Position numbers and translations under genes: made by a program. DNA of 64,000 nt from Rhytidiadelphus loreus. Its lineage: Eukaryota > Streptophyta > Bryopsida > Hypnales > Hylocomiaceae. The notes under the pieces are model-generated. The model did not search any database, was not told where the DNA came from, and was given only the letters and a program-made list of their open reading frames with translations. The stretch lies in the NCBI GenBank assembly GCA_947034895.1, contig OX344764.1:42947348-43011347 (forward strand), written 5' to 3'. Below, piece after piece: positions 10,708 to 61,565 of this stretch. Each line of letters starts with the position of its first letter. The first letter of the stretch is position 1.

Positions 10708-13007
10708 TGTAGACCAACTCAATTTTTGTTTTTCAGTCAATTTGCCTTTATAGTGTAAAAGGAGATGAATTGTGAGGTTAGTTTCACATTGAACAAAGAA
10801 GACAGGCAAGTTGACATTATAAAGAGATTTTGAAGGTTTTAATAGGCAGGATACGAAGTGAGGCAAATTGACCGGTTGTGATTCGGAAGTAGTCTGTCAC
10901 TTGTTCGTGGCAGTATAGTATCGGACAATTTGACTTTCCTTCCCCCCACTCTCTCGGTTTTCAGAAGCACCTTGTTTTTGTCAAATTGTCTGTATGCACA
11001 GTGCACTTTCTTTTAATATAATTTGTCTTGAAGCATATTAATTGCTTGTATATTTTTGTACTGCCAGTGATTGGAGTACTGTTGTTGTTGTGAATTGGAG
11101 TTTGGGCAAATTGTTGTTTGTTTGTATATCCAATGATTGGATTTTTATCTTGTGAGCAATTTGTATGTTTGCATTGTGTAATCGTAAATTATTTCATCAA
11201 TCCAGTGATTGGATTTTTAGTGGGAGCTTGACCGAATTGATAAAGGCAAATTGTCTTAAGCATATCCAGTGATTGGATTGCTAATTCAGGCATTGTCAAT
11301 TTGATAAATTAATTGTATTCCAGTGATTGGAAAATTATTGTTGAAGTCAAATTGCCTTTGTGTTGTTGTGTGATTGTGTATTATTTTCTTAATCCAGTGA
11401 GTGGATTTTTGGTGTGTAATTTGATAAGTGAGATTAAGCAAGTTGACTTTGAATTATCCAGTGATTGGATTTGGGTATAAATTCCATGTTTTAGAGTCTG
11501 TTTGTAAAGCAAATTGTCTAAGTGATTCGAGGAACATATTCCGAGGAAGGGACATCAAAACACATCGGCCATTGACGGAATCAACAAGGCAAATTGCTGA
11601 GGAGCTGTGCTGGTTGAGAGACAACTGGACGATCAAGTAAAAGCTGCCGGACAATTTGCCTTACCTGTTTAAAAATCGGTGTAGTATCAATTGACATTTA
11701 TTATTTCTGTGTGTATTGCTGTGAATAAATTTATTTGAAATTCTAAGCTTTAGTAATAATTAGAAAATTGCAATTGTGTATCATACATAGACAAATTGCC
11801 GTGATAAATATATTTCATAGAATTAGGAAGTCTCTACAATGCAAGAGTTATTTTTCAATCAAACATTAATTAATTCTTGAAAAGGCAAATTGACGGTTTG
11901 CCAAAGTATGAATAGTTTATTAAATATATATTTCTATACTGGATAGAAGTTGTAAAAGGATAGGGCAAATTATCGGGAATAAATTCTTGAATGGTAGGAA
12001 AGGATTGATGGAAATTATAGAAATATGTAGTTTAGGCTAATTGACTGTGGTCTCAATTCTCTTCAGTTACACTTATAGACAAATTGCCCTGAAATAGATT
12101 TAGCAATAGCCGATATATACAGACCTTAGGTTATCCTGTGAACTGTCTGTAAAATCACGAGAGATGATAGAAGTATGGATACTGGACAATTTGCCTAATT
12201 CTGAATTTAATTAAAAATATTAATTAAATAAAAACTTTATTTAATCTTTTATATCTTTATTGATTGAGCAAGAATTTGATAATGATGTGATGAACAAATT
12301 GTCTTATGATTAGATAATAAATTAGAAGTGATAGACAGTATGTCTACAATTCTATTGGCATGGTCAATTTGACTTTAATTATGAAAATATATAAATGGGA
12401 TCTAAATATGTTTGTGAATTAACTGGATTCTTGTCCTTGGGTTTTTGACATATTGTTGATAATGTGCAGTGAAGTTTGGAGATCTCAAATTGCATAACAC
12501 ACTCATTCCCATTGCATTAGATAGAGAAAAATTGCCCTAGGACTGGGACCGATTTGATACTCATGATAATTTAGTCATTAGGCTATTTAAATAGTGACTG
12601 GACAAATTGCCCGTGTAATCAAAATCATGGTAATTAATGAATCTATATTACTATTATTATAAATGTGAATGTTGCATTTAAAAGTCTAGATCATGCATGC
12701 CAAATTGCTCAAAATCCTGACAAATTGCCGGAATATACCCCTAGAATACTAGGCAGAACTGGGACTACAATCATGCGTCCAATAGCATTATTAACGGACT
12801 GTCAACCAAATTATGGGAATAAGAGTGAAATTTATGTATCTGCCTGTTGTTTGTGTAATTGCGTAGTATTTGTTTGTAAATCCCACAACATTCTAGAAAA
12901 CAAGTGACCTCAGCCACAACACATTAGACTATTTGATCATTCCCTAGAAATAGAACCCCTATACTATGTTCCTGGGTTTTTGGGTTTAAGCTAAAACCTA
13001 GATTACA
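10708..13007 (+). repeat. 5' LTR of gypsy element 1
   Basis: 2,300 bp, starting TGTAGACC and ending CTAGATTACA. By eye it differs from the 3' LTR at one base (CAGTCAA here, CAATCAA at 26,168-26,174). I count about 22 exact CAAATTG/CAATTTG motifs and seven CCAGTGATTGG-type motifs. The short open frames inside (70, 66 and 80 codons, repeated in the 3' LTR) are not genes. Confidence 0.95.
11064..11468 (+). repeat. Composite array: CCAGTGATTGG alternating with CAAATTG, ~65-bp period
   Basis: CCAGTGATTGG or a one-base variant starts at 11,064, 11,130, 11,202, 11,266, 11,320, 11,394 and 11,458, so spacing is 54-74 bp. It is usually within the larger inverted repeat ATCCAGTGATTGGAT. Between each neighbouring pair lies a copy of, or variant of, CAAATTG (for example near 11,106, 11,157, 11,246, 11,296, 11,347 and 11,436). 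Sequence between the motifs is not conserved from unit to unit. Confidence 0.85.
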
Positions 13008-13009
13008 TT

Positions 13010-13027
13010 TGGCGCCGCTGCCGGGGA
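13010..13027 (+). promoter_or_regulatory. Primer binding site, tRNA-Asp type
   Basis: TGGCGCCGCTGCCGGGGA begins two bases after the 5' LTR. It is complementary to the 3' end of plant tRNA-Asp except for one base (C for T at the ninth position). This primes minus-strand DNA synthesis. Confidence 0.85.
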
Positions 13028-13307
13028 ATGATCCTGGCTAATGGTGGCTGAAATGTAAACTAGAAATTACAGAATAATAAATTTTTCAAATAGATAAATC
13101 CCAAAATTAAGAATTCATATAGAAGAAATAGAATATGTAACTTCTTTTGGAGAAGAACTCTCTAAAGAATGACATGTATTTCTTCTTGAAGAATCCTTAT
13201 AAAGAGTATCTAAATTTTTAAAATTTATTTTTAACCTAGTAAAGTGGAAATCATAGAAAAATAAAAAAATAAAAAAAAATTTAAAATAATATGTGGGTAG
13301 ACAGAAA

Positions 13308-13844
13308 ATGGGGTTAACTGAGAAAATAGGTGAAGAATTCATAGAGGAAATTTTAAAAGAAATATTTCCGAAATTTGAAAATACTGACACAATTAATCCT
13401 AAAGTTATTCCGAGACACCCATTTTCTCAAAACCCTAGACCATTTTGTAGAACTATACCAAACCCTTGTCCTAATACACACTTTAACAGTTTAAATCTTA
13501 GAAATTCACGCGCTTATACTAGAGGGAAAATTAAGGGTCTTAGAGAGGGAAATAATTGCCATTTTTGTGGGGAGACAGGACATATTAAACGAACTTGTTT
13601 CAAGAAACAAGCTTACGATAATACCAATAAAATACCTCCTCAACTAATAAATCATTTTGGTAATCCACACACCACCAATTTACTCCCTACCTTTGACCCA
13701 GAATTTTTAAATTCGGTTAGCCAACTAAATCGATTAAGTTTTAAAAGGCTATCTATAGAAGAATTAGTTAGTATAAGAACCATAATTAATACTCTAATTT
13801 ATTTTCATTCTTCCCAACAAATGGATAACCTAAAATTATATTGA
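13308..13844 (+). CDS. Leader ORF1 with zinc knuckle, gypsy element 1
   Basis: The open frame starts with an in-phase GTG at 13,293; the first ATG is at 13,308. It encodes about 178 residues. A single CCHC knuckle CHFCGETGHIKRTC (C-x2-C-x4-H-x4-C) sits near the middle, after an arginine-rich stretch. This suggests nucleic-acid binding, as in Gag nucleocapsid. It precedes the true gag by 1.3 kb and is not in frame with it. Extra ORFs before gag are known in Ogre/Tat-type elements, but I cannot assign this protein to a named family. The C-terminal half has no recognised motif. Confidence 0.6.
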   Translation: MGLTEKIGEEFIEEILKEIFPKFENTDTINPKVIPRHPFSQNPRPFCRTIPNPCPNTHFNSLNLRNSRAYTRGKIKGLREGNNCHFCGETGHIKRTCFKKQAYDNTNKIPPQLINHFGNPHTTNLLPTFDPEFLNSVSQLNRLSFKRLSIEELVSIRTIINTLIYFHSSQQMDNLKLY

Positions 13845-13902
13845 CAACTCAACAAATAAATAAATAAAAGTAAAATAAAAAGTTTAGTACGAATGATTCA
13901 AA

Positions 13903-14421
13903 ATGGGTTATTTGTTTCCTTGGGAAGTATCAAAAATAATGAAGGATTATTTTTCAGGACCATGCCTTTTTATGGCACTATATCGTTTATATAGGAACGC
14001 ATATTTTGGACAAAGTTTTCAATTAAGTGGAAAATATATCCAAGATAAAGAATTAAAACAAAGAATAGAAAAATTGCCTTTAGATGTTAAAAGAATTATA
14101 TTTACTAAACTCTGGAATAAATTTGAACCAAAGAAAGAATTCGTAGTAAAATCCGGAGAATTACTCCTTGATTTTGCTCTTCTTTATTTATTTAGTCAAT
14201 ACGGGAAATTAAAACAAATTACAGATAGTGAAATACCCCAAGCCTATGCTGCTTGGACTGGAAAGAAAATTTTAGAAAGAATTTACATATTTACTTATGG
14301 TCCTATGAACCCGAGAATAACACCACTTATACCAGATTTTATTTGTAGAGAAAAAGCACATCCATTGAGTCCATCCTTTAGTTTAATTTGTCCAACTACT
14401 TTCGATTACGTTCGACTGTGA
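13903..14421 (+). CDS. Leader ORF2, unknown, gypsy element 1
   Basis: This 172-codon frame starts at ATG 13,903. It is rich in aromatic and basic residues with no transmembrane run and no motif I recognise. It lies between the zinc-knuckle ORF and gag, in a different frame from both. It may be a separate protein or the remnant of a longer leader protein. A structured segment (14,492-14,569) separates it from gag. Confidence 0.45.
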   Translation: MGYLFPWEVSKIMKDYFSGPCLFMALYRLYRNAYFGQSFQLSGKYIQDKELKQRIEKLPLDVKRIIFTKLWNKFEPKKEFVVKSGELLLDFALLYLFSQYGKLKQITDSEIPQAYAAWTGKKILERIYIFTYGPMNPRITPLIPDFICREKAHPLSPSFSLICPTTFDYVRL

Positions 14422-14491
14422 ACATAATCCCATAACGAATGTCTTTAGGAAAAACGACTGCTATATGAGTCCATATGCAGACGAAACTGAC

Positions 14492-14569
14492 ATCTCACTG
14501 AGCATTGGGAACCTACTACCCCGAGTCTGAGATAGCTCGAGATAAGAGGTACCCAATGTGCAATGAGAT
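14492..14569 (+). other. Predicted RNA hairpin in the gag leader
   Basis: Arms 14,492-14,513 and 14,548-14,569 pair at 18 of 22 positions across a 34-base loop (ATCTCACTGAGCATTGGG with its partner CCCAATGTGCAATGAGAT). A second pair, GATAAGAG (14,541) with CTCTTATC (about 14,581), overlaps it. It sits just before the gag ATG at 14,604. Confidence 0.5.
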
Positions 14570-14603
14570 TTTTGTTGAAATCTCTTATCTATGGCATCTT
14601 TAA

Positions 14604-17600
14604 ATGTCTGGACCTACACATGCCCGGATATTAAAGGAAGCATTACAAAAAGTTCAAAGAGATGAAAGAGCAATAAATAGAGAAAATCGAAGACGAATAC
14701 CTGTTGTGGTACCTTCTTGTCTTTCACCTCCAAAACCTCCACCTAGTCCCTCTGATGAAAGTAGTGGGGAATCAAGTTCTAAACAAGAGTTAGATCAACC
14801 TTTGGATGATATCATATCGAGAGAAGTTAATCCACCAACCAGTCCAAAAATTTTACATGAATTAGCAAGAAAATTTAAAGAACAGGAAGAGTCTTCATTA
14901 GATCCTTCTCAGACTCAAATACCGGAGGAAGTTCATGCAGGGGAATCTTCTCGTAACCCTCTTTCTAGATACCCTTCTATTGACTATTTATTTTCCCAAC
15001 CTTCCGCATTTGACCATGATACTATTAATAGTTATCTAGCAGAAAAGTGGGGACCTCCAAGTTTAGGTATTAATGAAAGGATCGAAACTCTCTTTAATCC
15101 TGTAAATGAATCAACTGGTGATATATTTTCAGTTCCCATAATTGATCAAATAACTCAAAATATACCAAGAATACAAATTTCCACTGGACAAATTTCGTTT
15201 GAAACTAACGAAGAAATAAATTTGCCTGAAGAAGAAAATAAGTCAACCATTGATTCAAATTCACCAAAAGTTTTATCTGAAGAAGAATTTTTAGACCAAA
15301 CTACTTCAGAATCTGAGACATCAGAAAATTTTGAAACCTCTGATAACTCTGAGACTTCTGAAACCTCAGATATAATCACTATGGCTCAACCTAGACCACT
15401 TAATTTAGTAGATCTACCACAATACTATGGATTAGCAGGTTCAGATCCGGATCATCATCTGAACCGCTTCAACGTAGTCTGTGCAGCCAACTTCATCCCA
15501 GAGGCTAATTTTCTTATAACTTTTCCTGCAACCTTGTATGGGATTGCTCAAGAATGGCATCAAACACATGGTCCATTTGAAACATGGAACGCCTTAAGAA
15601 ATGCCTTCTTAGCTAGATTCCGACCATTAGCTTTTACAGAAAGCCTACAAGAAAGATTAAGAACCATTAGGATGGCTGTAGGGGAAAGTGTTAATAATTA
15701 TTATGGTAGGATGGAATATATTTTACAACGCTGGACCGATCATAGGATTCCAGATTCTTATTTAACTGGAATTTTTGTAGGAGGATTATATCCACCTGAA
15801 TTTAAAATAGCAATAAAAGAAAAGAATCCTAGAGATCTGGCCACAGCGGTTCAATATGCTAAGCAATATGAGGAGGCAAGGATAGATGATGACCAATTGA
15901 TGACCTTAGATTCTAATATCTATCCACCTAATTTGGTCTATCCACAACCTGGAACACGAACCTCTCAACAGTCTCCATCAAAATATTATGCTAACCGACC
16001 CATCCAACCTACTATAGTAGCTGAAGTAAAAGATCCTAAAACAGATCTTTTAAGTAAACTTGTAGAAGAAATGGCTGATTTGAGAGTTCAAATCACTAAT
16101 GCCCCAATTAAGCGATCTAAACCTACTAATACTAGAACCAATGTATGGTGTTCAAATTGCAAAGGACATGGTCATTTACCATTTGAATGTCCATCCCCTA
16201 TTCTCAACATTGAGGAAATTCTACGTTGTAATTTTTGTGGAGGAAAACATCCTACTAATAAATGTTGGAACTTATCAGTACAAAACGATCTGAGAGCTGT
16301 AAAACAAGTGCTCCAAATTGATGCTAAGAAGCCATGGGTAAATAGAAATAATGATAATAAACGTCCTTTTACTCGACCCAACACAGGACCACCTTATAGA
16401 CCCAACGATAATCGACCTCGTTGGAATGATACTTATAATGAACCTCCTGTGTGGAATGGACCACCATCCAACCCCAATACCCATCGCTACGGAACCCCAG
16501 AGAGAGGAAAGAAATTAGTTTGTTATAGATGTGGGGAATTAGGTCATTATGCTAATGAGTGTCCTAACCCGAGAAAACAAGTAGGATATTCACCTTTTTG
16601 TGGTAGATGCCGTCAACAAGGACATCTTCTAGAAGATTGTACTGCTCCACCTAGGACTTTTCCTCCTTCTGAGAGGGATTACCCTAGAAATAAACAGGTT
16701 CAATTTCAAGAACCAGATAATTCTAGACCATCTAACCATATTTCGCACACTATACCTGTGACCAGATTATATCCAAAAAATGTCTTTATAGCCACTAGAG
16801 CAGCTAAGGCAAAACAAGATCTGCAAAAAGATCTGATTATAAGTAACACGGAAAGTGATAATGTCATTTCAATTTTGGCAAGACCACCAGAGGTAATAAA
16901 GGCATCTTTAGAAAAAGAGATAGTCCAACCTAATGAAATAGTTCTTGATCCAATTCATCCTAATAAAGAGATGACTTGGAAAGAAAGACAGGAAAAATTA
17001 TCCAAACCAATTGCAGAGCCAATGCTTGAAATACCAAAAGATGATAAGCCTATGGACAAATCAATTCCATTACCTAACTTTTACCAAATACCTGCAAAGA
17101 GAATAAATTTAAAATCACACAATCCACCTTCCTCAAAACGAAAATCTCTACGATCTATGAAATTAACAGAAGGATTGGAACCTTATAATATTTTAACAAA
17201 TTTGGATAACATACAACCTCTAATTAGTATGAAACAACTTTTGGCCATCTCACCAAAGTGTAGGAGTGAATTAAGTTCGTCATTAGTACGCAAAAGAACC
17301 AAAATGGTTGAAATTCATGAAATTTCTAGAGACCTTGGAGCTCCTATTGTGGATGCAATGATAGATGGATCATTAATTCAGGGAGTACAAATTGATAGCG
17401 GGTCTAGTGTAAATCTCATGAATTTCGAAACAATGGAGGAATTAGGTCTAAAAACTATGACCTCCACTCCGATTATTTTGCGTATGGCTGATTAGAGTAG
17501 AGTGAAACCACTGGGAATACTTAATCAAGTTCTCACTACTATTGGTGGAATTGATTATAAGGTTGATTATATCGTCTTTAAACTTATAGAATCAGTATCT

Positions 17601-20600
17601 TCCTATCCTATCTTGTTAGGACGACCATGGTTGTATTTGGCAAAAACTAAAGATGATTGGGGAAGAGGAACCCTTACTATTGGAAAAGGAAATAATAAAA
17701 TCATTTTACCGCTTTATCCAACTTCATACCATGGTGAAACCCAACAAAAAGATAGTAATGTCACTTCGGAAAACCAAACCGAAAGTGAAAGTGAAATAGA
17801 ACTCACCCAGAAAGTCTCTAAAGAATTACCTTACCGAAGTTTAGGATTTGGAGAATACTTTACTCCATTAGCACAGATTGATGATTCAGATGATGCCATT
17901 TTGGCTTGGAAAAATTCTGAAGTGTTGAACATCAATGTAGATATATCTTCAGACCTTGAACCTGAAATTCATTCTGATACCCAAGAAATGGATGATTTAC
18001 TAGCCTATAGTGAACCTACCCCTTTGCAAAGGAAAGCTTTCAAAGAATCTTTAAACACCCCAATTCAAGATATGAATTTGGGAACAACTTTGAAACCAAA
18101 AATTATTAAAATTTATTCCAAAATCACTCAAAGTGAATTTCAATATTGGCATGATTTCTTTAAAAGACATAAGAGTTCTTTTGCATGGAACTATTCTGAT
18201 TTGAAAGGAGTTCTTCCTGATATATGTGAGCATAAAATTATTTTAGAGCCTGATGCTAAACCTGTTAGGCAAAGACAATATAGGATGAATCCCAAATATT
18301 CACTAATGGTCAAAGAAGAAATTGACAAACTTTTAGATTGTGGATTTATCTTTGAAGTACCTCATAGTGAATGGGTATCTCCCATCATGATAGTGCCTAA
18401 AAAGAATGGAAAAATTCGCATTTGTCAAGATTATAGAAAACTAAATAGTGTAACAAAGAAGGATTATTTTCCTTTACCTTTCACAGACACCCTTTTAGAT
18501 GGTGTTGCAGGTTATGAGTGCTATTCCTTTATGGATGGTTTCTCAGGTTATAACCAAATCCAAATTGCGGAAATGTATAGATTATTAACCGCTTTTACAA
18601 CTGATTGGGGAATTTTTGCTCATACAAAAATGCCCTTTGGATTGTGTAATGCTCCAGCCACATTCCAAAGACTTATGACCATTGCTTTTCAAATTTATTT
18701 ACGAAAATTTATAGAAATTTTTCTAGATGATTTTTGTGTATATAGTTCAAAAGAAAAACATGCAGAGTGTCTAGAAAAATGTTTCATTCAATGTGAGAAG
18801 TACGGAATTTCTATTAATGCAGCTAAATCACAATTCGCCGTACCTTTTGGAAAATTGGTAGGACATATTGTATCTAGTCAAGGTATTGCTACCGATCCAG
18901 ATAAAGTAGCAATAATTGTCCAATTACCTCAACCTAACACTGTTACAGAGGTTCGAGCCTTTTTGGGACATGTTGGCTACTATAGAAGATACATTTATAA
19001 GTATGCCAACATAGCTATCCCTTTAACCGAATTAACTAAAAAGTCTGACATAGCTCCTATTTGGACAGATTCATGTACCAAAGCATTTGAAATTTTAAAA
19101 CAAAAATTAACGAGTGCTCCAGTTTTAATTCCTCCAGACTGGAATAAGGACTTTGAAGTATATGTTGATGCTTCAAATGTCGCAATAGGGAGTGTGTTAA
19201 GCCAAAAAGATGAAAAAGGCCATGATAAACCAATTTATTTTGCAAGCAGGCAGTTAGCCACTGCAGAAAAGAATTATACTGTAACAGAAAGAGAGGCATT
19301 AGGAATGATATTCTCTGTACAAAAATATAGACACTATTTGCTAGGTTATAAATTTGTTTTTCATGTAGATCATGATGCTTTGAAATACATGATCAACAAA
19401 CCCCAATTAAGTGGGTGAATTGCTAGATGGGTATTGTTACTCCAAGAATTCAATTTTAGTATCCAAGTTAGACCAGGGAAGAGTCATGCGAATGCTGACC
19501 ATCTTTCCCGTATAAGTTCGGATTTGGGTAAAGAACCATTGGATGATAATTTCCCAGATGCAAACTTATTTCATATAGATATTATTCCATTAGAATATGC
19601 CGAAATTATAAATTTCTTGCAAACTGGACAATTTCCCTTGGATTACACCGAAAAACAAAAGACCAAATTAATGTATAAATCAAGTCCTTACACTCTCATT
19701 GAAGAAGTTTTATACAAGAAAGGAAATGATGGACTTTTGAGACGTTGTATTAATCCAAGTGAAGTATCATTAATTTTAGAAGATTGCCACAGTAATAGTT
19801 GTGGTGGTCATTTTGCTGGGAATGTAACTGCGCAAAAAGCATTACAATCAGGTTATTGGTGGCCCACTATGTTTGCTGATGCTATTGCATTTGCAAAGAA
19901 GTGTAATCCATGCCAAAGAGTTGGGAAACCTACTCCTACCACTTCTATGCCTTTAACACCTATTCTAGCACAAATACCCTTTGAAAAATGGGGCATAGAT
20001 TTTGTTGGACCAATAAACCCACCCAGTAGAAATGGTAGAAAACATTATATTTTAGTTGCCACAGAATATGTGACAAAGTGGGCTGAAGCTGTTGCCACTA
20101 AGACAGATGATGCAAATACAGTTGCCAAATTTTTATACGAAAATATTATTACTAGATTTGGTTGTCCTAAAGAATTAGTAAGCGATAGAGGCACTCATTT
20201 TATTAATGATACTATTGCCAAATTAACTGACAAATATCTTATTAAGCATCGAAAGACTAGTCCCTATCATCCCAGGGCAAATGGTCAAACAGAAAAGACT
20301 AACGGTATTTTATGCAAAATTATTACTAAAACGGTCCAAGGATCAAATACAGACTGGGATGCCAGAGTATTTGATGCTTTATGGGCATATAGAACAGCCT
20401 ATAAAGTTACTACCAAAAGTACACCTTTTCAATTAGTTTATGGCCAGGAAGCTATTTTGCCTATAGAATTAGAAGTTCAATCTTTACGAATTGCACTTGA
20501 AAACCGTCTAGGAGATGAAGAGTCTCTAAAAGAAAGATTTGTAATGTTAGAAAAATTAGATGAAACTCGAAGACAAGCTTTTCTTAATATGAAAGCTATT

Positions 20601-20843
20601 CAAAACAGAAGAAAATCCTACTATGATAGCAAATTAATTTCCAAGAAACTTCAACCAAATGACCTTGTACTTTTATATGATAGTCGTTTTCAAAAATTTC
20701 CGGGTAAATTTAAAATGCGTTGGTTTGGCCCTTATAAAGTCTTAAATTCTTACCCTAACGGTTCTTTTGAAATTCAAGATTTTGCCGGAAATAAACATGC
20801 AACACGTTATAACGGTTATCGTTTAAAACCCTACATAACTTGA
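14604..20843 (+). pseudogene. gag-pol polyprotein of gypsy element 1, two in-frame stops
   Basis: A single frame of 2,080 codons. Gag core is near residues 300-400. Zinc knuckles are near 515, 541 (one residue short), 640 and 665. Aspartic protease has IDSGSS near 930. RT has the FLDD active site near 1,372, and RNaseH starts near 1,519. Integrase has an HHCC finger near 1,726 and D-D-E near 1,798, 1,860 and 1,893. A WFGPY module lies near 2,040. TAG at 17,493-17,495 falls inside the protease, and TGA at 19,416-19,418 between RNaseH and integrase. Both sit where related elements usually have Q or R, so CAG-to-TAG and CGA-to-TGA are likely. No frameshift is seen. The product is the capsid, reverse-transcription and integration machinery. 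Confidence 0.9.
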
Positions 20844-20854
20844 GGACAAGTTAT
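20835..20854 (+). other. Perfect hairpin over the pol stop codon
   Basis: ATAACTTG-AGGA-CAAGTTAT is an 8-bp perfect stem with a 4-base purine loop. The pol TGA (20,841-20,843) is inside it. A polypurine tract follows three bases later. The same arrangement recurs after the accessory ORF. Confidence 0.7.
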
Positions 20855-20856
20855 GA

Positions 20857-20870
20857 ATTAAGTAGGGGGC
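20857..20870 (+). promoter_or_regulatory. Internal polypurine-tract-like sequence
   Basis: ATTAAGTAGGGGGC is identical over 14 bases to the 3' PPT at 26,126-26,139, but lies 5.3 kb upstream, directly after pol. It could be a second plus-strand initiation site (as the central PPT in Ty1 and lentiviruses) or a relic of an ancestral pol-LTR junction. Confidence 0.65.
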
Positions 20871-23191
20871 AGGCTATAAAACATAAAAACAAAAAACAAA
20901 AAAACAAAAACAAAAAAACATAATAATAAAGGTGTATAAATTATTCTCATTCTATTTGGTACCTAAATATACTACCATTAAAGTATTATATAATGGACTA
21001 CCATTTAAGTGTAAAAATAAAACAAAACAAAATAAAAACAAATAAAAACATTTTTTTAGGCCATATCATTATTACAAAGATGAATTGACATGAGCATTAA
21101 TTAAATCAAAAAGTATACAAATCTTATAAGTAAATAAATGCAGACATAAAGGCAAATTGACGGGGTATCAAATTTTGGATAAGGAATATTGTATTTAATA
21201 CCCTGTATTAAATGAAAAGGGCAATTTGAAATTTAATCATCACGAACGAGTCACTGGCTGTTCCGGTTACTCAATTTCCTCCCGAATTAGGATTAGAGCA
21301 AATTGTCTTAAGTAAGGATTAGGGCAAATTGACCACGCATTGCGGCTGCAAAACTTGTGTAAGCAAGTGGACAATTTGCCTTCTACATTACGAATCAGGT
21401 ACGTTCTCACCCTTTGAATGTCTGCGAAGTTGTAGATTGAGAAGTGAGAAAGGCAAATTGCTCAGTTGAAAAGATTCTTTAGAACAGTTGAACAAATTGA
21501 CGGAGGAAATTGTAGTTAGGTTTAAATTATGAGAATATTTCCCTAATCCGTGATTAAATCCCTAAACAGCAAATTGTCTAAGCGATTAGGCAAGTGAAGA
21601 TTGTGTAGTTTAGAGGTTACGGACAATTTGCCGAGAGGAGAGATAACTGGTTGTTAAACAGGAAAGCGTGTAGTTGTAATCGGGCAAATTGTCTGAGCGC
21701 GATCAGTATTGTAAAACTTGGACTGCCAATTTGCTGAAGTTCTTTAGTAAAATTTGTAGCAATTTGTGTGTTTATTATTTGTTGATTAACCAAGAATAAC
21801 CATTATCCCTTGAGCTGATTGGGCAAGTTGTCTTGTGAAGCAAATTGCGAGACGCAAAGTAAGCTGTTCTCATTTTCTAACATTTCTTTACTTGGTGTGG
21901 GGACAGTTGAGTGAAGAACTGCCCTAACGACAAATTGCCAAGAGAGAAGACGACTGGGAGAGACTGCGAGAACAGAAATCTACTGGTAAGCTTTACAGAC
22001 AATTTGCCGAGTGAATTAGGTTTTGTTTTCAGACTGTAACTCTACGGAAATCAAGTTGTCAAATTCAAAATTTTCTTAAACCTAATCGGTGTTTTGCCTT
22101 TATCTACAGACTGGTAGTATATACGGACAATTTGACGGTGATCTGTAGAAGAGTTTGTGACTGCTTGTGAGGTAATCTACTTAACACAGTCAAATTGCCA
22201 GTGGTTATTCAGAAAGGAAAATATAAGGAGAGAAAATAAAGCAAATTGAGTGTTTTTCTTTGGAAAACATGATAAAAATTGTAATAAGGCAAATTGACTA
22301 AGGGAAGAAGAAAAGAATGGCTGCAGCATTAAGATTAAGAAGCCAGAGGGAGCAATTTGAGAGTACAGTAAGAACATTAGCTAAAATACTACATTGTAAT
22401 CATTTGAATAAAATAAACCTAATTTGCCACATCAAACAGTGAGTGGAATAGATACAGCAAATTGACCAAGATTAACACAAGTGAGTGCCAATTTTATGAG
22501 GCTTAGGTGAGAATTAACACTGTTAAGATAATTTGCCGAGAGAATGTGTAACGACAATTTGCCTGAACTTAATTAGGAAACCACAGATTCTTCACAATTT
22601 TAAAGAGGAAGTTAATACTGGTGAAAATTTTTATTGAAGCATAAGGAAGCGATACAAATGTAGAGTTTGTGAAGAAATCCGAGCTGAATTAGGAAATTTT
22701 TTTGTAAGCAATTAGGCAAATTGCTGGAAAGTGAGGATTAAGTCTAATAGCAAAGAGAAAATGAGAGTTGAGAGAAAATGTGTGAAAATTATAAGTATGA
22801 GGGCCGTTCAAAATTAAAAAGAGTAAATGAGAATGAATAACAGTCAGTCCAATTGTTTTAATAATCAACTCCATTGTAACTGAAGCCTAAGAGCAAATTG
22901 TTGAAGTAATGTAGAAATTAAGAAGACAAATTGCCGTATTAGTGAATTCAGGTCTCTAAGAGGCTTAAGGGAAATTGCCGTGAGCTTCGTGAGTCAAATT
23001 GCCTGAAAGTAAGAATATTTATAAAACATGATAAAAAGAGAAAATGAGCGTGAGAGAAAATGAGAGAACAGGAAGATTGAGTGCAGAAAACATGAAGGTG
23101 AAGAAGCTTAGCCGAGTGATTTAGTTTGAATGCTAAGAGTGTCTTTCGAAATTCCAAACATCTAAGTAGTGAGATGCCGGCAAATTGTCAG
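20871..23191 (+). repeat. Noncoding block dense in CAAATTG motifs
   Basis: I count about 26 exact CAAATTG/CAATTTG copies in 2.3 kb, typically as GGCAAATTGAC, GACAATTTGCC or GGCAAATTGTC, with further variants such as GGCAAGTTGTC. I see no ORF of weight. The motif density matches the LTR and contrasts with about four copies in the 7.8 kb of gag-pol. Between motifs the sequence is AT-rich and unremarkable. Confidence 0.85.
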
Positions 23192-26110
23192 ATGGCACCA
23201 CCAGGAGGACTGAAGGTGTTTTCCATACCTTTCTTTGAAATCCCTCCCGATATTATGCAACAAATTGTCCAGGAGCGAAACGACCAGCTCCATTCTTCTG
23301 GTCTTTGGACGTATATCCATCGAGGATGGGAGCAGCCTACTTTGGAGCGAGTTTGACAATTTCTTAAAGTCAGCAGTTTTGGGCAAATTGTCGACAAACT
23401 GCGGATCGAGGGAGTGCCATGCCAATTTGACCCGTCCAGATTGGCTGAACTTCTGGGAATTTCTCCAGATGGCCAAGGACAAAGTATGATTCCGTCTCTA
23501 ACAAAGGAAGACAAGGAGCAACTTTTTGGGAAGAAATTTCAAGTTGCCAAAAAGACCGGGGGTTGGGATCTGCTACGTGTAACTTCTCCCCTTTGTCATT
23601 GGTTACAGTATATTAATAGTCGATTTTTCCTGGCAAGTCGCTCCGAGTTGGCAACGAATGATGCTTTAGCAGCAGGCTTGGCATCATGGCGTGGACAAAT
23701 GTTGGATTGGGGGCAAATTGTCTACTCGCAGATCAAAGTGGAAATGGCCCTTAAAAAGGCACGCAACCCTATTTCGTTAGTCTCGGCCGTGTATATTTCG
23801 GAGATGACCCGGTCAGTGGCGAAGTAGGATCTTCATGTACAGCCAATTGCCATGGGAGCATTGCCAGCTGCAAGTAGTCGGGAGCCAGAGTCAAATTGCC
23901 CAGAATCTACATCAAGGGGACTCATACCGACTCCTACACCAGCGAAATCAACACCAACCAACCCAACAAGAGCCGAATCGAAGAAAAGTCCGATGCTGAA
24001 GCAAGATTTGATCAAGCAATGTCAAGAGCTACAGACCAAGAATGACATTTTATTGCAGGAGCTCAAGGTGACTTTAGACAGCGAGACCAAATTGCATCAG
24101 CAGATGAAGATTGTTACTAAGGAAAGAGATGATAGTCGGGCAAGAGCGGGCGAATTGTTGAAGAATAATGAGGATCAAGCGAGCAATTTGACTGCGTTGC
24201 AAGCCACCATGAAGAGAGATCATGATGCTTGGGAGACGGTGAAGGCGCAGTTACTCGAAAAGATCCGACTACAGGAGCAGAGGCACGAAATTAAAGTAAA
24301 GGAGCTTGAGACTCGTTTGGCGAAGGAAGGACAAGTGGCTGAGTTGGAAGCCAAGCTTGTGAAGCAAACACGGGACATTAAAGCCTATCAGGAAAATATT
24401 AAAATCTTACGTGCTAATGCTCAGAAGGAGAAAGACAATTTAGAGCGCCGATTGAAGGCCGCAGAGGACAAATTGCCGATTGGGAAGAAAACTCGAGGAC
24501 CAGATGTGGAAGAAACGAGTAATCAGGACAATTTGTCTGAGGAATCGGAGGATGACATACAGTTCTTGATTAGCTCGAACGACGCGCTGCATACCAAGGT
24601 GGAAAACCTGGAAGCAAGACAGGAGAATTTATACGAGGCGTTGTGGATGAATCAACTGAAGTCGCCTCCATCTTTTTCACTTTTTCGTGCTTATGAACTG
24701 CAGCGAGACGTTTTCTTACAAATTGCCGAGGTGGAGAAAGGAGCTACTTTGCCATCAGAAATTTTTGAAAAGATTTGGTTGATGACCAAGGCACCTGAAA
24801 ATCAGCGCAATTTGTTCTGTGAAATTCTTGTACGGGGCGATTTGATTTTAGAAGATTGGTCCGTTTTATTTTTTCCTATTGTGGATATCGGAGCCAGGGC
24901 CTTACTCTATTACATTGAATTGGAGAAGCAACTTCACAGGCAACGGCAAATTGACTTTGCAGAAGAGGCCGAACGAAAGGTTCGTATTATTGATCACAGT
25001 TCGTCAATTTGTCCAACGACAGAAGATTTTTCAGGAGAAATTGTCTCTAACTGGATGAAGGAGTTAAGAGAGTTGAAGGACGCTATCAAGCTACTTGGGA
25101 AGGCTCACAAAATTCATGAGGTAATGACAAATTGCCTAGAACGTGAGCAAATTTTCCAGCGAGGAGAGCTGACCAATAGCCATTACGTGTATAACATGGA
25201 GCACACGTTTCATCGGTTAGAGAGAACTCTGGATCGAGTTTCCGAGTATGCCACAACGATTCCTAACACTAAGGACACAAGTCAAATTGCCTTAGCACCT
25301 TCAGATTACAAACCGGCCAAATGGCTGAAGGTTACTCCCCCGGTTCGAGGTTCAGTACTAACGGAGCAGTTTCTGGGGAAGTATTACCATTTATTCAATG
25401 ATATGCAGGAGGAGATGCCAATTCCTTCCTGGAAGACTCTTGAGTGGCTGGTCGAAGATTACGGGCAAACGGTGAAAGAAGATCAGCCATATGATCAAGT
25501 CTACCCAGTCATTTCGGGTAACTGGCAAGTGGACCCTCCAGCAGCTGTTTCGACAAATGGCCATTTCTGTAATTGTCCAAGGCGATACAAGTGGCACCCT
25601 AATTCTACTATAGATTCAATAGAGTACAATTGGCCCATTATCGAAGGCAGGTTCAACACCCCAGAGCAGTGTGCGGAATCCTATGAGTTGTTTTATGATT
25701 GTCACAATACTCATACGGATCCGGTGTGCTTTAGAGCTGCGGTATTCTGTAAATTTTTGGCTGAGATGTGCAGGCAACACCGAATTTTGGCCAACATCAA
25801 TCAATTTGACCGACAGCGCCCCGAATTTCATCTTATGTTGAAGATCCAGCACAATACAGCGCGCTGGCATCGACTTGTGGAGGTCATGGCCATTACACAT
25901 TTTTGGACAGGGGCACATTTGTGTTTTATTAATGAGTTTCCCTGTACCCGCTATTGGCCGTGGCAATATTGGTATGATTCTCAAGGGGACAACAATCCAG
26001 GACTACTTGCCCGAAATCCGCAAGTTGACAAGGTTGTGGCGCGATCCAAGCAGCAACGATTAAAGCGGCAGAACCAGATGCAGAATCAGAAGCGACCAAG
26101 AAAATATTGA
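23192..26110 (+). pseudogene. Accessory protein gene (env position) of gypsy element 1
   Basis: One frame of 973 codons with in-frame TGA at codon 55 (23,354) and TAG at codon 212 (23,825). The start ATG GCA at 23,192 is conserved in element 2 (61,527). An internal ATG at 23,852 opens the last 752 codons. Regions in order: N-terminal domain (codons 1-205), low-complexity linker, long coiled coil (about 267-430), a middle domain containing RDVFLQIAEVEKG, and a Cys/His-rich C-terminal domain (about 790-925) almost invariant between elements. A basic tail ends in QKRPRKY and resembles a nuclear localisation signal. No transmembrane segment, so it is not a classical Env. Function unknown; a nuclear DNA-binding dimer is my inference. 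Confidence 0.75.
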
Positions 26111-26123
26111 CGAGGGCGTCAAT
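26106..26123 (+). other. Perfect hairpin over the accessory stop codon
   Basis: ATTGACG-AGGG-CGTCAAT has a 7-bp stem and a 4-base purine loop and includes the TGA stop at 26,108-26,110. It is conserved in element 2 (58,053-58,070). It mirrors the hairpin after pol with a different stem sequence. Confidence 0.7.
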
Positions 26124-26125
26124 AG

Positions 26126-26141
26126 ATTAAGTAGGGGGCTA
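26126..26141 (+). promoter_or_regulatory. 3' polypurine tract
   Basis: ATTAAGTAGGGGGCTA ends directly at the 3' LTR and primes plus-strand synthesis. Confidence 0.85.
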
Positions 26142-28441
26142 TGTAGACCAACTCAATTTTTGTTTTTCAATCAATTTGCCTTTATAGTGTAAAAGGAGAT
26201 GAATTGTGAGGTTAGTTTCACATTGAACAAAGAAGACAGGCAAGTTGACATTATAAAGAGATTTTGAAGGTTTTAATAGGCAGGATACGAAGTGAGGCAA
26301 ATTGACCGGTTGTGATTCGGAAGTAGTCTGTCACTTGTTCGTGGCAGTATAGTATCGGACAATTTGACTTTCCTTCCCCCCACTCTCTCGGTTTTCAGAA
26401 GCACCTTGTTTTTGTCAAATTGTCTGTATGCACAGTGCACTTTCTTTTAATATAATTTGTCTTGAAGCATATTAATTGCTTGTATATTTTTGTACTGCCA
26501 GTGATTGGAGTACTGTTGTTGTTGTGAATTGGAGTTTGGGCAAATTGTTGTTTGTTTGTATATCCAATGATTGGATTTTTATCTTGTGAGCAATTTGTAT
26601 GTTTGCATTGTGTAATCGTAAATTATTTCATCAATCCAGTGATTGGATTTTTAGTGGGAGCTTGACCGAATTGATAAAGGCAAATTGTCTTAAGCATATC
26701 CAGTGATTGGATTGCTAATTCAGGCATTGTCAATTTGATAAATTAATTGTATTCCAGTGATTGGAAAATTATTGTTGAAGTCAAATTGCCTTTGTGTTGT
26801 TGTGTGATTGTGTATTATTTTCTTAATCCAGTGAGTGGATTTTTGGTGTGTAATTTGATAAGTGAGATTAAGCAAGTTGACTTTGAATTATCCAGTGATT
26901 GGATTTGGGTATAAATTCCATGTTTTAGAGTCTGTTTGTAAAGCAAATTGTCTAAGTGATTCGAGGAACATATTCCGAGGAAGGGACATCAAAACACATC
27001 GGCCATTGACGGAATCAACAAGGCAAATTGCTGAGGAGCTGTGCTGGTTGAGAGACAACTGGACGATCAAGTAAAAGCTGCCGGACAATTTGCCTTACCT
27101 GTTTAAAAATCGGTGTAGTATCAATTGACATTTATTATTTCTGTGTGTATTGCTGTGAATAAATTTATTTGAAATTCTAAGCTTTAGTAATAATTAGAAA
27201 ATTGCAATTGTGTATCATACATAGACAAATTGCCGTGATAAATATATTTCATAGAATTAGGAAGTCTCTACAATGCAAGAGTTATTTTTCAATCAAACAT
27301 TAATTAATTCTTGAAAAGGCAAATTGACGGTTTGCCAAAGTATGAATAGTTTATTAAATATATATTTCTATACTGGATAGAAGTTGTAAAAGGATAGGGC
27401 AAATTATCGGGAATAAATTCTTGAATGGTAGGAAAGGATTGATGGAAATTATAGAAATATGTAGTTTAGGCTAATTGACTGTGGTCTCAATTCTCTTCAG
27501 TTACACTTATAGACAAATTGCCCTGAAATAGATTTAGCAATAGCCGATATATACAGACCTTAGGTTATCCTGTGAACTGTCTGTAAAATCACGAGAGATG
27601 ATAGAAGTATGGATACTGGACAATTTGCCTAATTCTGAATTTAATTAAAAATATTAATTAAATAAAAACTTTATTTAATCTTTTATATCTTTATTGATTG
27701 AGCAAGAATTTGATAATGATGTGATGAACAAATTGTCTTATGATTAGATAATAAATTAGAAGTGATAGACAGTATGTCTACAATTCTATTGGCATGGTCA
27801 ATTTGACTTTAATTATGAAAATATATAAATGGGATCTAAATATGTTTGTGAATTAACTGGATTCTTGTCCTTGGGTTTTTGACATATTGTTGATAATGTG
27901 CAGTGAAGTTTGGAGATCTCAAATTGCATAACACACTCATTCCCATTGCATTAGATAGAGAAAAATTGCCCTAGGACTGGGACCGATTTGATACTCATGA
28001 TAATTTAGTCATTAGGCTATTTAAATAGTGACTGGACAAATTGCCCGTGTAATCAAAATCATGGTAATTAATGAATCTATATTACTATTATTATAAATGT
28101 GAATGTTGCATTTAAAAGTCTAGATCATGCATGCCAAATTGCTCAAAATCCTGACAAATTGCCGGAATATACCCCTAGAATACTAGGCAGAACTGGGACT
28201 ACAATCATGCGTCCAATAGCATTATTAACGGACTGTCAACCAAATTATGGGAATAAGAGTGAAATTTATGTATCTGCCTGTTGTTTGTGTAATTGCGTAG
28301 TATTTGTTTGTAAATCCCACAACATTCTAGAAAACAAGTGACCTCAGCCACAACACATTAGACTATTTGATCATTCCCTAGAAATAGAACCCCTATACTA
28401 TGTTCCTGGGTTTTTGGGTTTAAGCTAAAACCTAGATTACA
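26142..28441 (+). repeat. 3' LTR of gypsy element 1
   Basis: 2,300 bp, equal in length to the 5' LTR, with one difference seen by eye. That difference is G-to-A (C-to-T on the other strand) in a CTG context. It ends ...GATTACA and is followed by the TSD AATCC at 28,442-28,446. Confidence 0.95.
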
Positions 28442-28446
28442 AATCC

Positions 28447-29521
28447 CCTCCCCCTTTTCTATCACTAAAAACTCAACGAATCCTAACGCCAACTTAACAA
28501 CCAAAAAAGGGTAAAAACCCAACTTTTGGAGTTTGACTTTTCTATGAAAAATAAGTGGCCTAGGCTCTTTAGTAGGTGTAAGGAAGTAAGAAAAGACCTA
28601 ACTTCGACTTCATTCCGATTTCATATACTCCCGAAACACCGGTCAACTCCACGGTAATCTTTAAATTTGCCGGTCTTAGAGGAATCTTGCAAGTTCGGGT
28701 ATTTCTGGCTATTAAAATGTCTTAAAACTTTTTGGAGCATCTTATTAACATAAAAAAAGCTACCCTAATTTTTAGTGAGATTTTACCACAATCTGGGTAA
28801 TTTCTAGAAATTTCCCATCGTAGGTTTTGAGTGGTTGACTGCTCGGAAAAAGATCTTTGATGATAAAAAAAAACCGAGACTTTTTATGGAAACTCTCATG
28901 GAATTCCACAACCCATGTGCAAGCTCATATTCTTACTTTGCACCATGGTCATAGGAGATTCAAAAGATGCCATCTCCTAGAATTACCGGTGTCTAGGGAA
29001 TCTTCCACATAAAGAAGAATCTTGGTGAATCGACTTCGCCGTTGAGCTCCTAACATGGTATAGACCCCAAAACACTATCCCTTGGCCATAGATTCTCTCT
29101 ACTGGCCCGTCCTAAATTTGTAACACCTGTAGGCTAACAATTGGGGTTTCTACTAAATTGGATAAACAATTTGGAACTGAAACCTATCTTTGGGAATCGA
29201 CTTTAGGATTCTCACCTAGGTTCCCTCGGACCAAATTGGCCATAGTTTATCACAAGCAAGGTAGATTAGGCTATTATGGGCAATATCACTCAATATGTAC
29301 AGTTTGCCCTATTTCCCGGGTTTCAACCTATGTACAAGTGGGTTTATGAACTAACTAAGCCAAAACACTCAATTTATGCCCATATACCGTATTGGTATGT
29401 GACATACTCATTTTGGCTTTCCACTCTTTTGGGGGCTTTTTGTACCTAAAACTTAACTTAATTTTGCAAAAATTGAAAAAAAAAAAATCATGAGTCCCAA
29501 GTGACGAATTTGGAGCTCACA
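28447..29521 (-). mobile_element. Solo LTR family C, copy 1: U3 side
   Basis: This is the start of the minus-strand LTR, TGTGAGCTCC then AAATTCGTCACTTGGG, shared with copies 2 (40,128) and 3 (47,226). It is followed by TSD AACAT at 29,522-29,526. With the gypsy insertion and its TSD removed, the whole LTR is about 3.8 kb. No ORF is credible. Confidence 0.85.
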
Positions 29522-29526
29522 AACAT

Positions 29527-39051: not shown

Positions 39052-39608
39052 CGGGGGGGTCACTTAGAGTGTCCATTGGAAACTACGTGTGAGCAAAACT
39101 TTAGACTCCCTATATACTTTTGAATTTGAAATAAATAGAAATTGAAAAAATAAAAATAGATTTTCCTACTTTGATATAGTTTATCTTTTAAATTACTGAT
39201 ATTTTATTTGTTAACAATAATTAGTTACAAATTTTTGAAGTAAAAATGATACACTGTAGAACTAAAAAATAACTTAAGTTTCACATTCCTATACTATGTA
39301 AAAAAAAATGAAAAAAAATGAAAAAAGAAATCCTAAAAGTAATTTTCTATTGAAAACTCATTTTGAGTTGGATATTGATTTGATGATCATCTAAATGTGT
39401 TCTCTATAATTATTTGAGTTGGAAAACATGCCATTTTAGTTCATTTTTAACATCTTCTAGAAATCATTTCATATTTTATTTGAATTGGAAATTTTGGCAA
39501 TAGAAACCTAGTCATTATTAAACAATGGTCAAAATTTTAAATTGAAATTATAGTTTATTAGAAACCACTTGTTCACATGTTGTAGTAGGACTAAGTGCAC
39601 CTCCCAAA
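39052..39608. mobile_element. MITE family D, older copy
   Basis: About 557 bp aligned by eye to the MITE at 58,215-58,795 throughout, for example ACATGCCATTTTAGTTCATT and AATTATAGTTTATT. The ends are CGGGGGGGTCACTTAG and the complement of CTAAGTGCACCTCCC. Flanks ACATTGTTCT and AAATTGTTAA may be a decayed 10-bp target duplication (7 of 10). Confidence 0.7.
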
Positions 39609-43679: not shown

Positions 43680-44035
43680 AAAAAAATAAATTAAATTAGG
43701 AGATAAATTAAATTAGAAGATTAAATTAGGAAAAAAGATAAATTAAATTAGGAGATAAATTAGGAAAAAAGATAAATTAAATTAGGAGATAAATTAGAGA
43801 AAAGATAAATTAGATTAGAAGATTAAATTAGGAAAAAAGATAAATTAAATTAGAAGATTAAATTAGGAAAAAAGATAAATTAAATTAGGAGATAAATTAG
43901 AGAAAAGATAAATTAAATTAGAAGATTAAATTAGGAAAAAAAAAAAGATAAATTAAATCAGAAGATTAAATTAGGAAAAAAGATAAATTAAATTAAGAAA
44001 TTAAATTAGGGAAAAAGATAACTTAGATTAGGAAA
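43680..44035. repeat. AT-rich tandem array within the solo LTR
   Basis: Many copies of GATAAATTAAATTAGGAG and GATTAAATTAGGAAAAAA-type units in two alternating forms. Confidence 0.9.
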
Positions 44036-54964: not shown

Positions 54965-55152
54965 GTAAACTAGGCACGTGAACATGCTTCCCGAGGAGCT
55001 GGTCTCGGGGAAAGTAAAAGATGTAAGTGCAGGCCGTCCATTAATTGTGATAGACAGAGGCGGGCAGTTATGAAAAAAGGATTTGAACTACAAGTTTACG
55101 ATCTTTATATAGAAACTAGATGTATTAGAGATCCAAACTTCTCTATTTTGGG

Positions 55153-55395
55153 CCCAAACTTTTAGAGTTTGGGACCGAAGCTTCTCCAACTTCGACCCAA
55201 ACTTTTAGAGTTTGGGGCCGAAGCTTCTCTAACTTGGACCCAAACTTTTAGAGTTTGGGGCCGAAACTTCTCCAATTTGGGCCCAAATTTCTTCAGTTTA
55301 GGGCCAAAGCTTCTTCAATTTGGACCCAAGTTTCTTGAGTTTGGGGCCCAAGCTTATTTACCTTGGGCCCAAACTTTCTTAAATTGGTGGCTTAA
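55153..55395. repeat. 43-bp tandem repeat, five to six copies
   Basis: The CCCAAA start recurs exactly every 43 bp (55,153, 55,196, 55,239, 55,282, 55,325, 55,368). Each unit holds CCCAAACTTTTAGAGTTTGG or a variant, itself nearly palindromic, followed by GGCCGAAGCTTCTC. Frames through it are compositional. Confidence 0.9.
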
Positions 55396-55659
55396 ATAGA
55401 AAACATTGGGGCTCAATTTTTTTGAGTTTGCCCTAAACTGCTTGGGATTGGATTAAAAAATTTCATAATGCGGAACCAGCTTGCAACCGAATTGCACAAG
55501 CTTGCTCTCCAAAATTGTAGAATGGTGGTTCCCCTGCTCCAGCCTGCGACAAGTTTTCTCACCTCTTGCCTGAACGTCCTCCACCTCTCGGCGCCATCGA
55601 AAACAATACCTAATTAATTGTGTTTGCCAGTAGCGTGGCACGAGTCAATCGTACGAGCC

Positions 55660-58034: not shown

Positions 58035-58050
58035 TAGCCCCCTACTTAAG
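58035..58050 (-). promoter_or_regulatory. Polypurine tract of gypsy element 2
   Basis: CTTAAGTAGGGGGCTA on the minus strand abuts the LTR and matches the element-1 PPT. Confidence 0.85.
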
Positions 58051-58052
58051 CC

Positions 58053-58070
58053 ATTGACGCCCTCGTCAAT
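58053..58070 (-). other. Conserved hairpin over the accessory stop codon, element 2
   Basis: ATTGACG-AGGG-CGTCAAT is identical to element 1, and the TGA stop (58,066-58,068) is inside it. Confidence 0.7.
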
Positions 58071-61527: not shown

Positions 61528-61565
61528 CTGATAAACCAATTGACACGCTCCCACCGGTCACTCTC

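Follow-up and report, generated by a model that had tools for sequence, protein, structure and literature searches.

The closest described counterpart of the arrangement reported here is found in the VANDAL transposons of Arabidopsis, where the protein VANC21 binds the short motif YAGTATTAY and induces loss of methylation (PMC5735166, PMC10398659). We have analysed a stretch of 64,000 nucleotides from Rhytidiadelphus loreus (Bryopsida; contig OX344764.1, positions 42,947,348 to 43,011,347), hereafter the window, which contains a full-length Ty3/gypsy long terminal repeat (LTR) retrotransposon, E1, and a diverged, inverted relative, E2. Both are loaded with the short motif CAAWTTG and both carry an accessory open reading frame (ORF). 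As far as the accessible accounts of VANC and VANDAL go, the likeness lies in a short motif present many times per element, an accessory protein encoded by the element and variants of the motif between related families. There are also clear differences. VANDAL elements are Mutator-like DNA transposons, whereas E1 has LTRs, gag, reverse transcriptase (RT), RNase H and integrase. The VANC motifs lie in non-coding tandem repeats, whereas the E1 and E2 sites are dispersed, have unrelated flanks and extend into the coding sequence of the accessory gene. DUF1985/DUF287, a feature of VANC proteins, was not found in the E1 and E2 accessory proteins, and binding and the ensuing methylation loss are demonstrated for VANC21, whereas both are at most predicted for E1 and E2.

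The additional ORFs found in plant LTR retrotransposons have long been puzzling (PMC7264820). Retand elements resemble E1 in being plant gypsy elements with a long region between pol and the 3′ LTR that holds an additional ORF; DNA binding has been predicted for their TRP28-domain ORFs, and a regulatory role suggested. These ORFs are antisense bar two exceptions, whereas the long accessory ORF of E1 is sense; Retand has tandem repeat arrays in its internal region, whereas the E1 motif array occupies the LTRs also; and the accessible text of the report does not mention a dispersed motif (PMC11963269). Athila and Bagy2 share with E1 a sense ORF between pol and the 3′ LTR, though theirs are termed env-like and no array of binding sites is described in the portion of the source available (PMC7264820). 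The foamy-virus protein Tas is likewise encoded by a retroelement and binds two promoters of that element, one in the LTR and one internal, but its sites, as far as described, are promoter sites and not an array over LTR and 3′ half, and element and host are unrelated to ours (PMC4929722). Proteins of Tork and Athila ORFs have been considered in terms of a VANC-like shaping of epigenetic state, described as still to be investigated (PMC12844716), and sunflower additional-ORF proteins have been likened to plant DRBM proteins, with modulation of RNA silencing suggested (PMC11728184).

An earlier note on this DNA described the motif array of E1 and knew of no such system in an LTR retrotransposon. 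We likewise found no LTR retrotransposon with a self-encoded site array in the open-licence literature searched, a body outside which preprints and most subscription papers lie. To that note we add a second element with an array, the different flank rules of the two, the heterotypic half-sites of E1 and the in-frame stops in several of its ORFs.

Results and discussion

The motif array

CAAWTTG occurs 173 times in the window, 91 of them within E1 (Table 1). The expectation for each segment was taken as the mean of 300 dinucleotide shuffles. Both LTRs of E1, the spacer between pol and the accessory ORF, and the accessory ORF itself are overwhelmingly enriched, with means of 0.92-1.2 and no single shuffle exceeding a count of 5. 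The earlier note had put the random expectation at roughly 0.5 per 2.3 kb. Gag-pol is not enriched and the leader carries no site. The earlier counts of CAAATTG/CAATTTG were close: about 22 per LTR (22 in each found), 26 in 20871-23191 (27 found), 17 in the accessory ORF (14 in 23414-26110 or 16 from 23192, within three) and about 4 in gag-pol (4 in 13008-20843). The full form GRCAAWTTGYC is present 27 times in E1, being distributed as 7, 0, 0, 9, 4 and 7 over 5′ LTR, leader, gag-pol, spacer, accessory ORF and 3′ LTR, where shuffles give means of 0.003-0.02 per segment.

Self-comparison of the window identified E2 from 55660 to the window end, comprising an LTR, an accessory gene and a spacer, and the element probably extends past the window edge. 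Its sites sum to 58, counting one across the ORF-spacer border at 61329/61330. The E2 leader and gag-pol are outside the window, and no integrase match was obtained in 61001-64000 (E<=10); the gag-pol comparison thus rests on E1.

Table 1. Segments of E1 and E2, with CAAWTTG sites given as observed/shuffle mean
Feature	Position	Strand	Sites	Remarks	Basis
E1, full-length Ty3/gypsy LTR retrotransposon	10708-28441	+			LTR pair, target duplication, domains
E1 5′ LTR	10708-13007	+	22/1.1	even spacing	counts, shuffles, spacing simulation
E1 leader	13008-14603	+	0/0.42	3′ of 5′ LTR; two small ORFs	ORFs 13293-13844, 13903-14421
E1 gag-protease, RT-RNase H and integrase ORFs	14604-20843	+	4/2.07	single frame, broken by stops	Pfam
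E1 spacer	20844-23413	+	29/0.92	pol to accessory ORF, 2.6 kb	
E1 accessory gene	23414-26110	+	14/1.05	open parts 23414-23827, 23852-26110	ORFs, relatives, model
E1 3′ LTR	26142-28441	+	22/1.2		counts, LTR comparison
E2 LTR	55660-58034	-	22/1.0	sites counted in 55660-58012	inner boundary set by alignment to E1
E2 accessory gene	58792-61329	-	10/0.68	open parts 60915-58792, 61329-60955	ORFs, similarity to E1
E2 spacer	61330-64000	-	25/0.96	upstream of accessory gene	counts

By a second-order Markov ranking CAAATTG is first of all 7-mers in all six loaded segments of E1 and E2 (z 7.3-18.2), and it is not among the six top 7-mers listed for gag-pol or for the remaining window. Scores of this size are not unique, since other words score 10.7-19.7 in the 8 control windows listed of 27; of these values the two highest lie over a TAAATTA tandem array and the others rest on 7-8 copies. 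The remaining window (37850 bases) holds 24 CAAWTTG against 14.5 expected, a far weaker enrichment, and other repeats are not loaded, the 7 control stretches containing between 0 and 2 sites apiece. When a matrix derived from the E1 LTR alone was run at a threshold of 10, the site density came to 10.89/kb for the spacer of E1 and 4.82/kb for its accessory ORF. On E2 the values are 10.2 (LTR), 10.11 (spacer) and 3.94 (accessory ORF), with a background of 0.32 in gag-pol and 0.15 in 28450-55600.

The sites are exact. Against a first-order Markov expectation there are 65/3.2 in E1, one LTR being counted, and 58/2.7 in E2, and words with a single mismatch are mostly near expectation in both. One exception is the S-centred form CAASTTG (6/1.5 in E1 and 9/1.7 in E2), in keeping with the centre variants CAAGTTG and CAACTTG that the earlier note had listed; two others, CTAATTG (12/1.5) and CGAATTG (7/0.8), are confined to E2. 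Were the array a decaying repeat, numerous one-off copies should remain, and their scarcity argues against such an origin. Conservation of the flanks ends about 5-6 bp from the site centre, beyond which the surroundings of E1 site pairs are no more alike than those of random places (median 0.30 for both), the highest pair reaching 0.57 in E1 and likewise in E2. On the strength of the unrelated flanks and scarce one-off variants we reject a tandem-expansion origin, and the dinucleotide shuffles together with the synonymous shuffles described below exclude an origin in base composition or codon usage. Two outcomes that the earlier note named as refuting its idea, a lack of enrichment over shuffled sequence and one recent tandem expansion, were therefore not observed. 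In the E1 LTR the sites are spaced evenly (coefficient of variation 0.44 against 0.94 for random placement, with 0 of 2000 simulations as even), and in the E1 spacer only 1 of 2000 simulations matched the observed regularity.

As an observation on the mismatched words, 9 of the 12 E2 copies of CTAATTG/CAATTAG, one base off the motif, lie in the spacer part 61834-63173; they are perhaps a second site class of E2.

Persistence of the array

The accessory genes of E1 and E2 differ at a proportion of 0.855 of synonymous positions (pS), which is saturated, and 0.283 of non-synonymous positions (pN), and the main part of the protein, for which the E2 open part has 707 amino acids, is 55% identical. 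The protein has thus been conserved while neutral positions were randomised. We made 2000 synonymous-codon shuffles of each coding part. The main accessory part carries 12 sites against a shuffle mean of 2.56 in E1 and 9 against 2.32 in E2, values reached by 0 of 2000 shuffles; RT (1/2.0) and integrase (0/0.11) show no excess. Relative to the reading frame, the main-part sites use all three phases in E1 and two in E2. In a codon alignment, 4 of the 12 E1 sites recur unchanged at the corresponding place of E2, compared with a baseline of 4.8% for any 7-mer (P=0.0019), and 8 of the 12 do not.

The LTRs of the two elements align strongly only at their ends, which correspond to 28-185 (E 9e-25) and 1931-2433 (E 3e-69) in the E2 piece; the other aligned pieces span 12-56 columns with E 0.005 or worse. 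The unalignable middles are still loaded, with 18 sites in 26269-27933 of E1 and 16 in 56163-57907 of E2. Taken with the 8 coding sites that are not kept, this indicates that site density has been maintained while positions shift. Selection on the motif at the level of DNA is, on these comparisons, almost certain.

Flank rules

In E1 the flanks are dyad-symmetric, with G at -5 in a fraction of 0.69 and C at +5 in 0.75. The two elements differ at ±4, where the letters are G 57, A 39, T 30 and C 4 in E1 and A 76, G 20, T 18 and C 0 in E2. A site permutation gives p=0.0002 (the floor of 5000), and LTR and spacer taken separately each give 0.0005 (the floor of 2000). There is a further difference at ±6 (chi-square p=8.5e-5, half-sites) and none at ±5, which is mostly G (p=0.088). 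Within E1 all three segment pairs are concordant at ±4 and ±5 (p 0.19-0.96), and within E2 the LTR and spacer are concordant (0.63, 0.18).

E1 avoids identical letters at ±4, with 10 of 65 sites against 21.6 expected (P=0.00085), and in 46 of the 65 G is paired with A or T. The commonest E1 forms are GACAATTTGCC, GACAAATTGCC, GGCAAATTGAC and GGCAATTTGAC. The commonest form in E2 is GACAAATTGTC, and identical ±4 pairs are slightly over-represented there (34 of 58 against 28.6, P=0.047). GWCAAWTTGCC, in which a GGCAA half is combined with GACAA or GTCAA, is a better description of the E1 site, and GACAAWTTGTC of the E2 site. Of the GRCAAWTTGYC palindrome in the earlier note, the symmetry of the flanks stands and the perfect palindrome does not quite hold for E1. 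Similarly, its proposal of a site for a symmetric dimer is supported by the dyad symmetry, which suits a symmetric or near-symmetric dimer, and qualified by the heterotypic E1 half-sites.

Deamination was considered as a cause of the flank shift between E1 and E2 and rejected. It would decay the core C also, and TAAWTTG/CAAWTTA number only 7 in E1 and 8 in E2; forms with T for the first C and with A for the last G are found at 1/3.1 and 6/3.1 (observed/expected) in E1 and at 4/2.6 and 4/2.6 in E2.

The accessory protein

A search with the region gave 20 relatives of the accessory protein at 34-50% identity, and two other protein searches, which scored only some 8000 candidates sharing most words, added P0003 and P0022 (alignment-based search, 3 matches). 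Seven of the 16 relatives listed are ORFs of 894-1142 amino acids that include the N-terminal region ahead of the coiled coil. The layout is an N-terminal domain, a long coiled coil and a conserved C-terminal domain. Pfam Transposase_32 (PF20167), a family of plant transposon proteins, weakly matches the N-terminal domain of 4 of 23 aligned members at E<=0.1, the best at 2.9e-05 with 24.5 bits against a curated cut-off of 45, and no such match was obtained in the E1 and E2 open parts. DUF1985/DUF287 are absent from the Pfam results for the E1 and E2 open parts (E<=1) and from the families listed at E<=0.1 for the 23 aligned members. Pfam scans of the E1 and E2 accessory parts and the 23 members gave no match to a TRP28-type domain, which we take to be Transposase_28 in Pfam; an antisense ORF of 122 amino acids (25616-25984) lay outside the scan. 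An NCBIfam search gave nothing useful, and no relative was confirmed in searches of viral and genome contigs for the relatives' DNA. Most sequence-profile matches to the PDB fell in the coiled coil, and we did not accept the matches as homology.

The structure model, built from 23 sequences, has a mean predicted local distance difference test (pLDDT) score of 74.6; an earlier model from 5 sequences (48.2) was discarded as poor. The model has a helix at 51-205, and the C-terminal ten-residue blocks over 501-690 score 72-97 except for one at 61. In this domain Cys573, Cys607, His618, His621 and Cys640 are invariant in the members covering them, with Cys626 conserved at 0.95, and the set may bind a metal. 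The last 45 residues of the E1 protein include 11 Lys or Arg, with a similar composition in several relatives, and this tail is a possible nuclear signal; the E2 open part stops before it.

An in-frame TGA followed by CAATTT occurs in the N-terminal accessory frame at 23354 in E1 and 61365 in E2, at an apparently homologous codon (by eye) despite the synonymous saturation. P0001, P0002 and P0005 carry an amino acid at this position (by eye). The shared TGA may represent parallel loss or tolerated recoding, which are indistinguishable here.

What reads the sites?

The symmetric flanks, the exactness of the sites and their spread, which takes in coding DNA and leaves gag-pol without enrichment, point to a DNA-binding factor, and the motif is very probably a site bound by protein. 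Two elements in one genome have different rules in their non-coding parts, and this favours a reader specific to each element. Outside gag-pol we found a single conserved protein in both E1 and E2, the accessory protein, given that the E2 leader and gag-pol are outside the window, and we regard it as a fairly likely reader of the motif. The following mechanism can be proposed. Operator-like sites with the core CAAWTTG, arrayed over the two LTRs, the spacer that follows pol and the accessory gene, would be recognised in duplex DNA by a dimeric factor specific to the element. The most likely candidate is the accessory protein, with its coiled coil and conserved C-terminal domain. The factor, bound along the LTRs and 3′ half, would label the copies of its own element and make them open to transcription, or keep them so, by VANC-like anti-silencing or by transactivation, and specificity would drift as protein and sites co-diverge. 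The anti-silencing effect is suggested by analogy with VANC, where a short motif and an element-encoded binder lead to methylation loss, and we give anti-silencing or transactivation an even chance of being the effect. For the mechanism as a whole we would put the probability at about 0.48.

Several results weigh against this proposal. The short N-terminal open parts of the accessory gene show no excess over synonymous shuffles (2/1.31 in E1 and 1/0.26 in E2), and gag-protease is borderline (3/1.12, fraction 0.054). Even spacing is absent over the whole 3′ half of E1 (fraction 0.107) and from E2 (0.55, 0.45). A single flank rule for all segments of an element was considered; it held in E1 and failed for the E2 accessory ORF, whose sites (n=10) depart at ±4 from those of the LTR (p=0.012) and spacer (0.037). 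One rule per element is valid for the non-coding parts only, and the accessory-ORF sites show no difference between E1 and E2 at ±4 (p=0.38). Coding constraint or a weaker rule in the E2 ORF is a possible reason. We have, because of this lack of uniformity, slightly lowered our confidence in the accessory protein as reader and in the whole, and slightly raised that in a host factor. The avoidance of identical ±4 halves means that a simple homodimer on a perfect palindrome misfits E1. The centre base on the sense strand is A in 75 sites and T in 47 (p=0.014), unexpected for a purely symmetric DNA site; composition may account for the excess in the spacer of E1, which is A-rich, but the LTRs are T-rich and it does not do so there. 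Pfam scans of the accessory protein (E1 and E2 parts and 23 aligned members) identified no known DNA-binding domain, and fold comparison of the model with PDB and viral structures gave no match at E<=0.001. In-frame stops at 17493, 19416 and 23825 hit both gag-pol and the accessory gene of E1. The evidence base is two elements of one locus.

Could a protein of the host read the sites instead? A host transcription factor or chromatin protein might confer tissue expression, or the host might use the sites to mark the element for silencing or insulation, as Su(Hw), a host protein, does on the Drosophila gypsy element. LTR retrotransposons commonly borrow host factors. The missing DNA-binding domain would be accounted for, E1 and E2 share one host, and their coding sites have, within the power of the test, one flank pattern. 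On the other hand, 65 non-redundant E1 sites outside gag-pol, extending through coding region and spacer, far exceed the needs of a promoter, the LTR and spacer rules differ between elements of the same genome as would be expected of element-specific readers, and the remaining window is far less enriched. We consider a host factor unlikely.

It is improbable that the motif acts in RNA, where it could affect how the genomic RNA is packaged, dimerised, spliced or stabilised. The internal parts with the motif do fall inside the presumed transcript and the centre bias favours the sense strand, if weakly, but dyad-symmetric flanks typify double-stranded DNA sites and the avoidance of self-complementary ±4 pairs in E1 speaks against pairing. 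Packaging signals usually reside in the leader or gag, from which the motif is absent or nearly so. A role, via the accessory protein, in integration targeting or in chromosome structure, as in a centromere or nucleoprotein scaffold, would fit the dense, even spacing in the E1 LTR and spacer and the coiled-coil architecture. We rate it as similarly improbable, since E1 is inserted in a repeat (28444-29523) that has 2 motif sites and is not loaded, and no hint of self-targeted or centromeric insertion turned up in the window, although no search was aimed at this. Finally, a functionless by-product of tandem duplication or mutational bias finds one instance in its favour, a 72% internal LTR duplication (11122-11279/11313-11471) containing one shared site pair (11157/11348), and is very improbable given the random-level flank similarity, the near-expected mismatched words, the persistence of the array through saturated divergence and the unloaded state of other repeats.

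Under the operator-array reading, the selected site array gives the accessory ORF a directly testable function. A broader and more tentative proposition is that these elements represent an LTR-retrotransposon lineage with its own DNA-binding factor and about 60 sites over LTRs, spacer and the gene of the factor itself, in which flanks and factor co-diverge into a private subfamily code for anti-silencing, convergent with VANC and without tandem repeats. If this is true, sequence-specific self-recognition evolved independently in retrotransposons, and the E1 and E2 specificities would together make up a compact code of protein-DNA recognition that might serve as a locus-specific tool for chromatin editing.

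Further features of the elements

The LTRs, gag and pol order RT-RNase H-integrase make E1 a Ty3/gypsy element; Pfam identifies gag, RT, RNase H and integrase in the ORFs of 14604-20843. A chromodomain at the integrase end was not found, ORF 19434-20843 giving rve and Integrase_H2C2 only (Pfam, E<=1). The target duplication is 5 bp, AATCC on either flank. The LTRs of 2300 bp differ at 1 base and, judged by this pair, E1 appears young. Since stops are present despite so small a difference, other elements may have mobilised this copy, or its LTRs may have been homogenised. Scans of the window against Rfam and for tRNA genes gave no match.

One of the two small leader ORFs within 13293-14421 has a weak CCHC zinc-knuckle match, below cut-off, and the two hold no motif site. 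A second short word, ATCCAGTG, has 4 copies in a stretch of some 260 bp in the E1 LTR (11200-11463 and the equivalent place in the 3′ LTR), with spacings of 64, 128 and 64.

In E2 the interval between LTR and ORF (58013-58791) has 0 CAAWTTG against 0.29 expected. Over half of it, 58308-58718, resembles 39145-39559 (79%); both stretches are without motif sites, and the former is probably a nested repeat within E2. Elsewhere in the window, 43701-44031 is an AT-rich tandem array with TAAATTA, and an array with a 43-bp unit (55133-55429) adjoins the E2 LTR.

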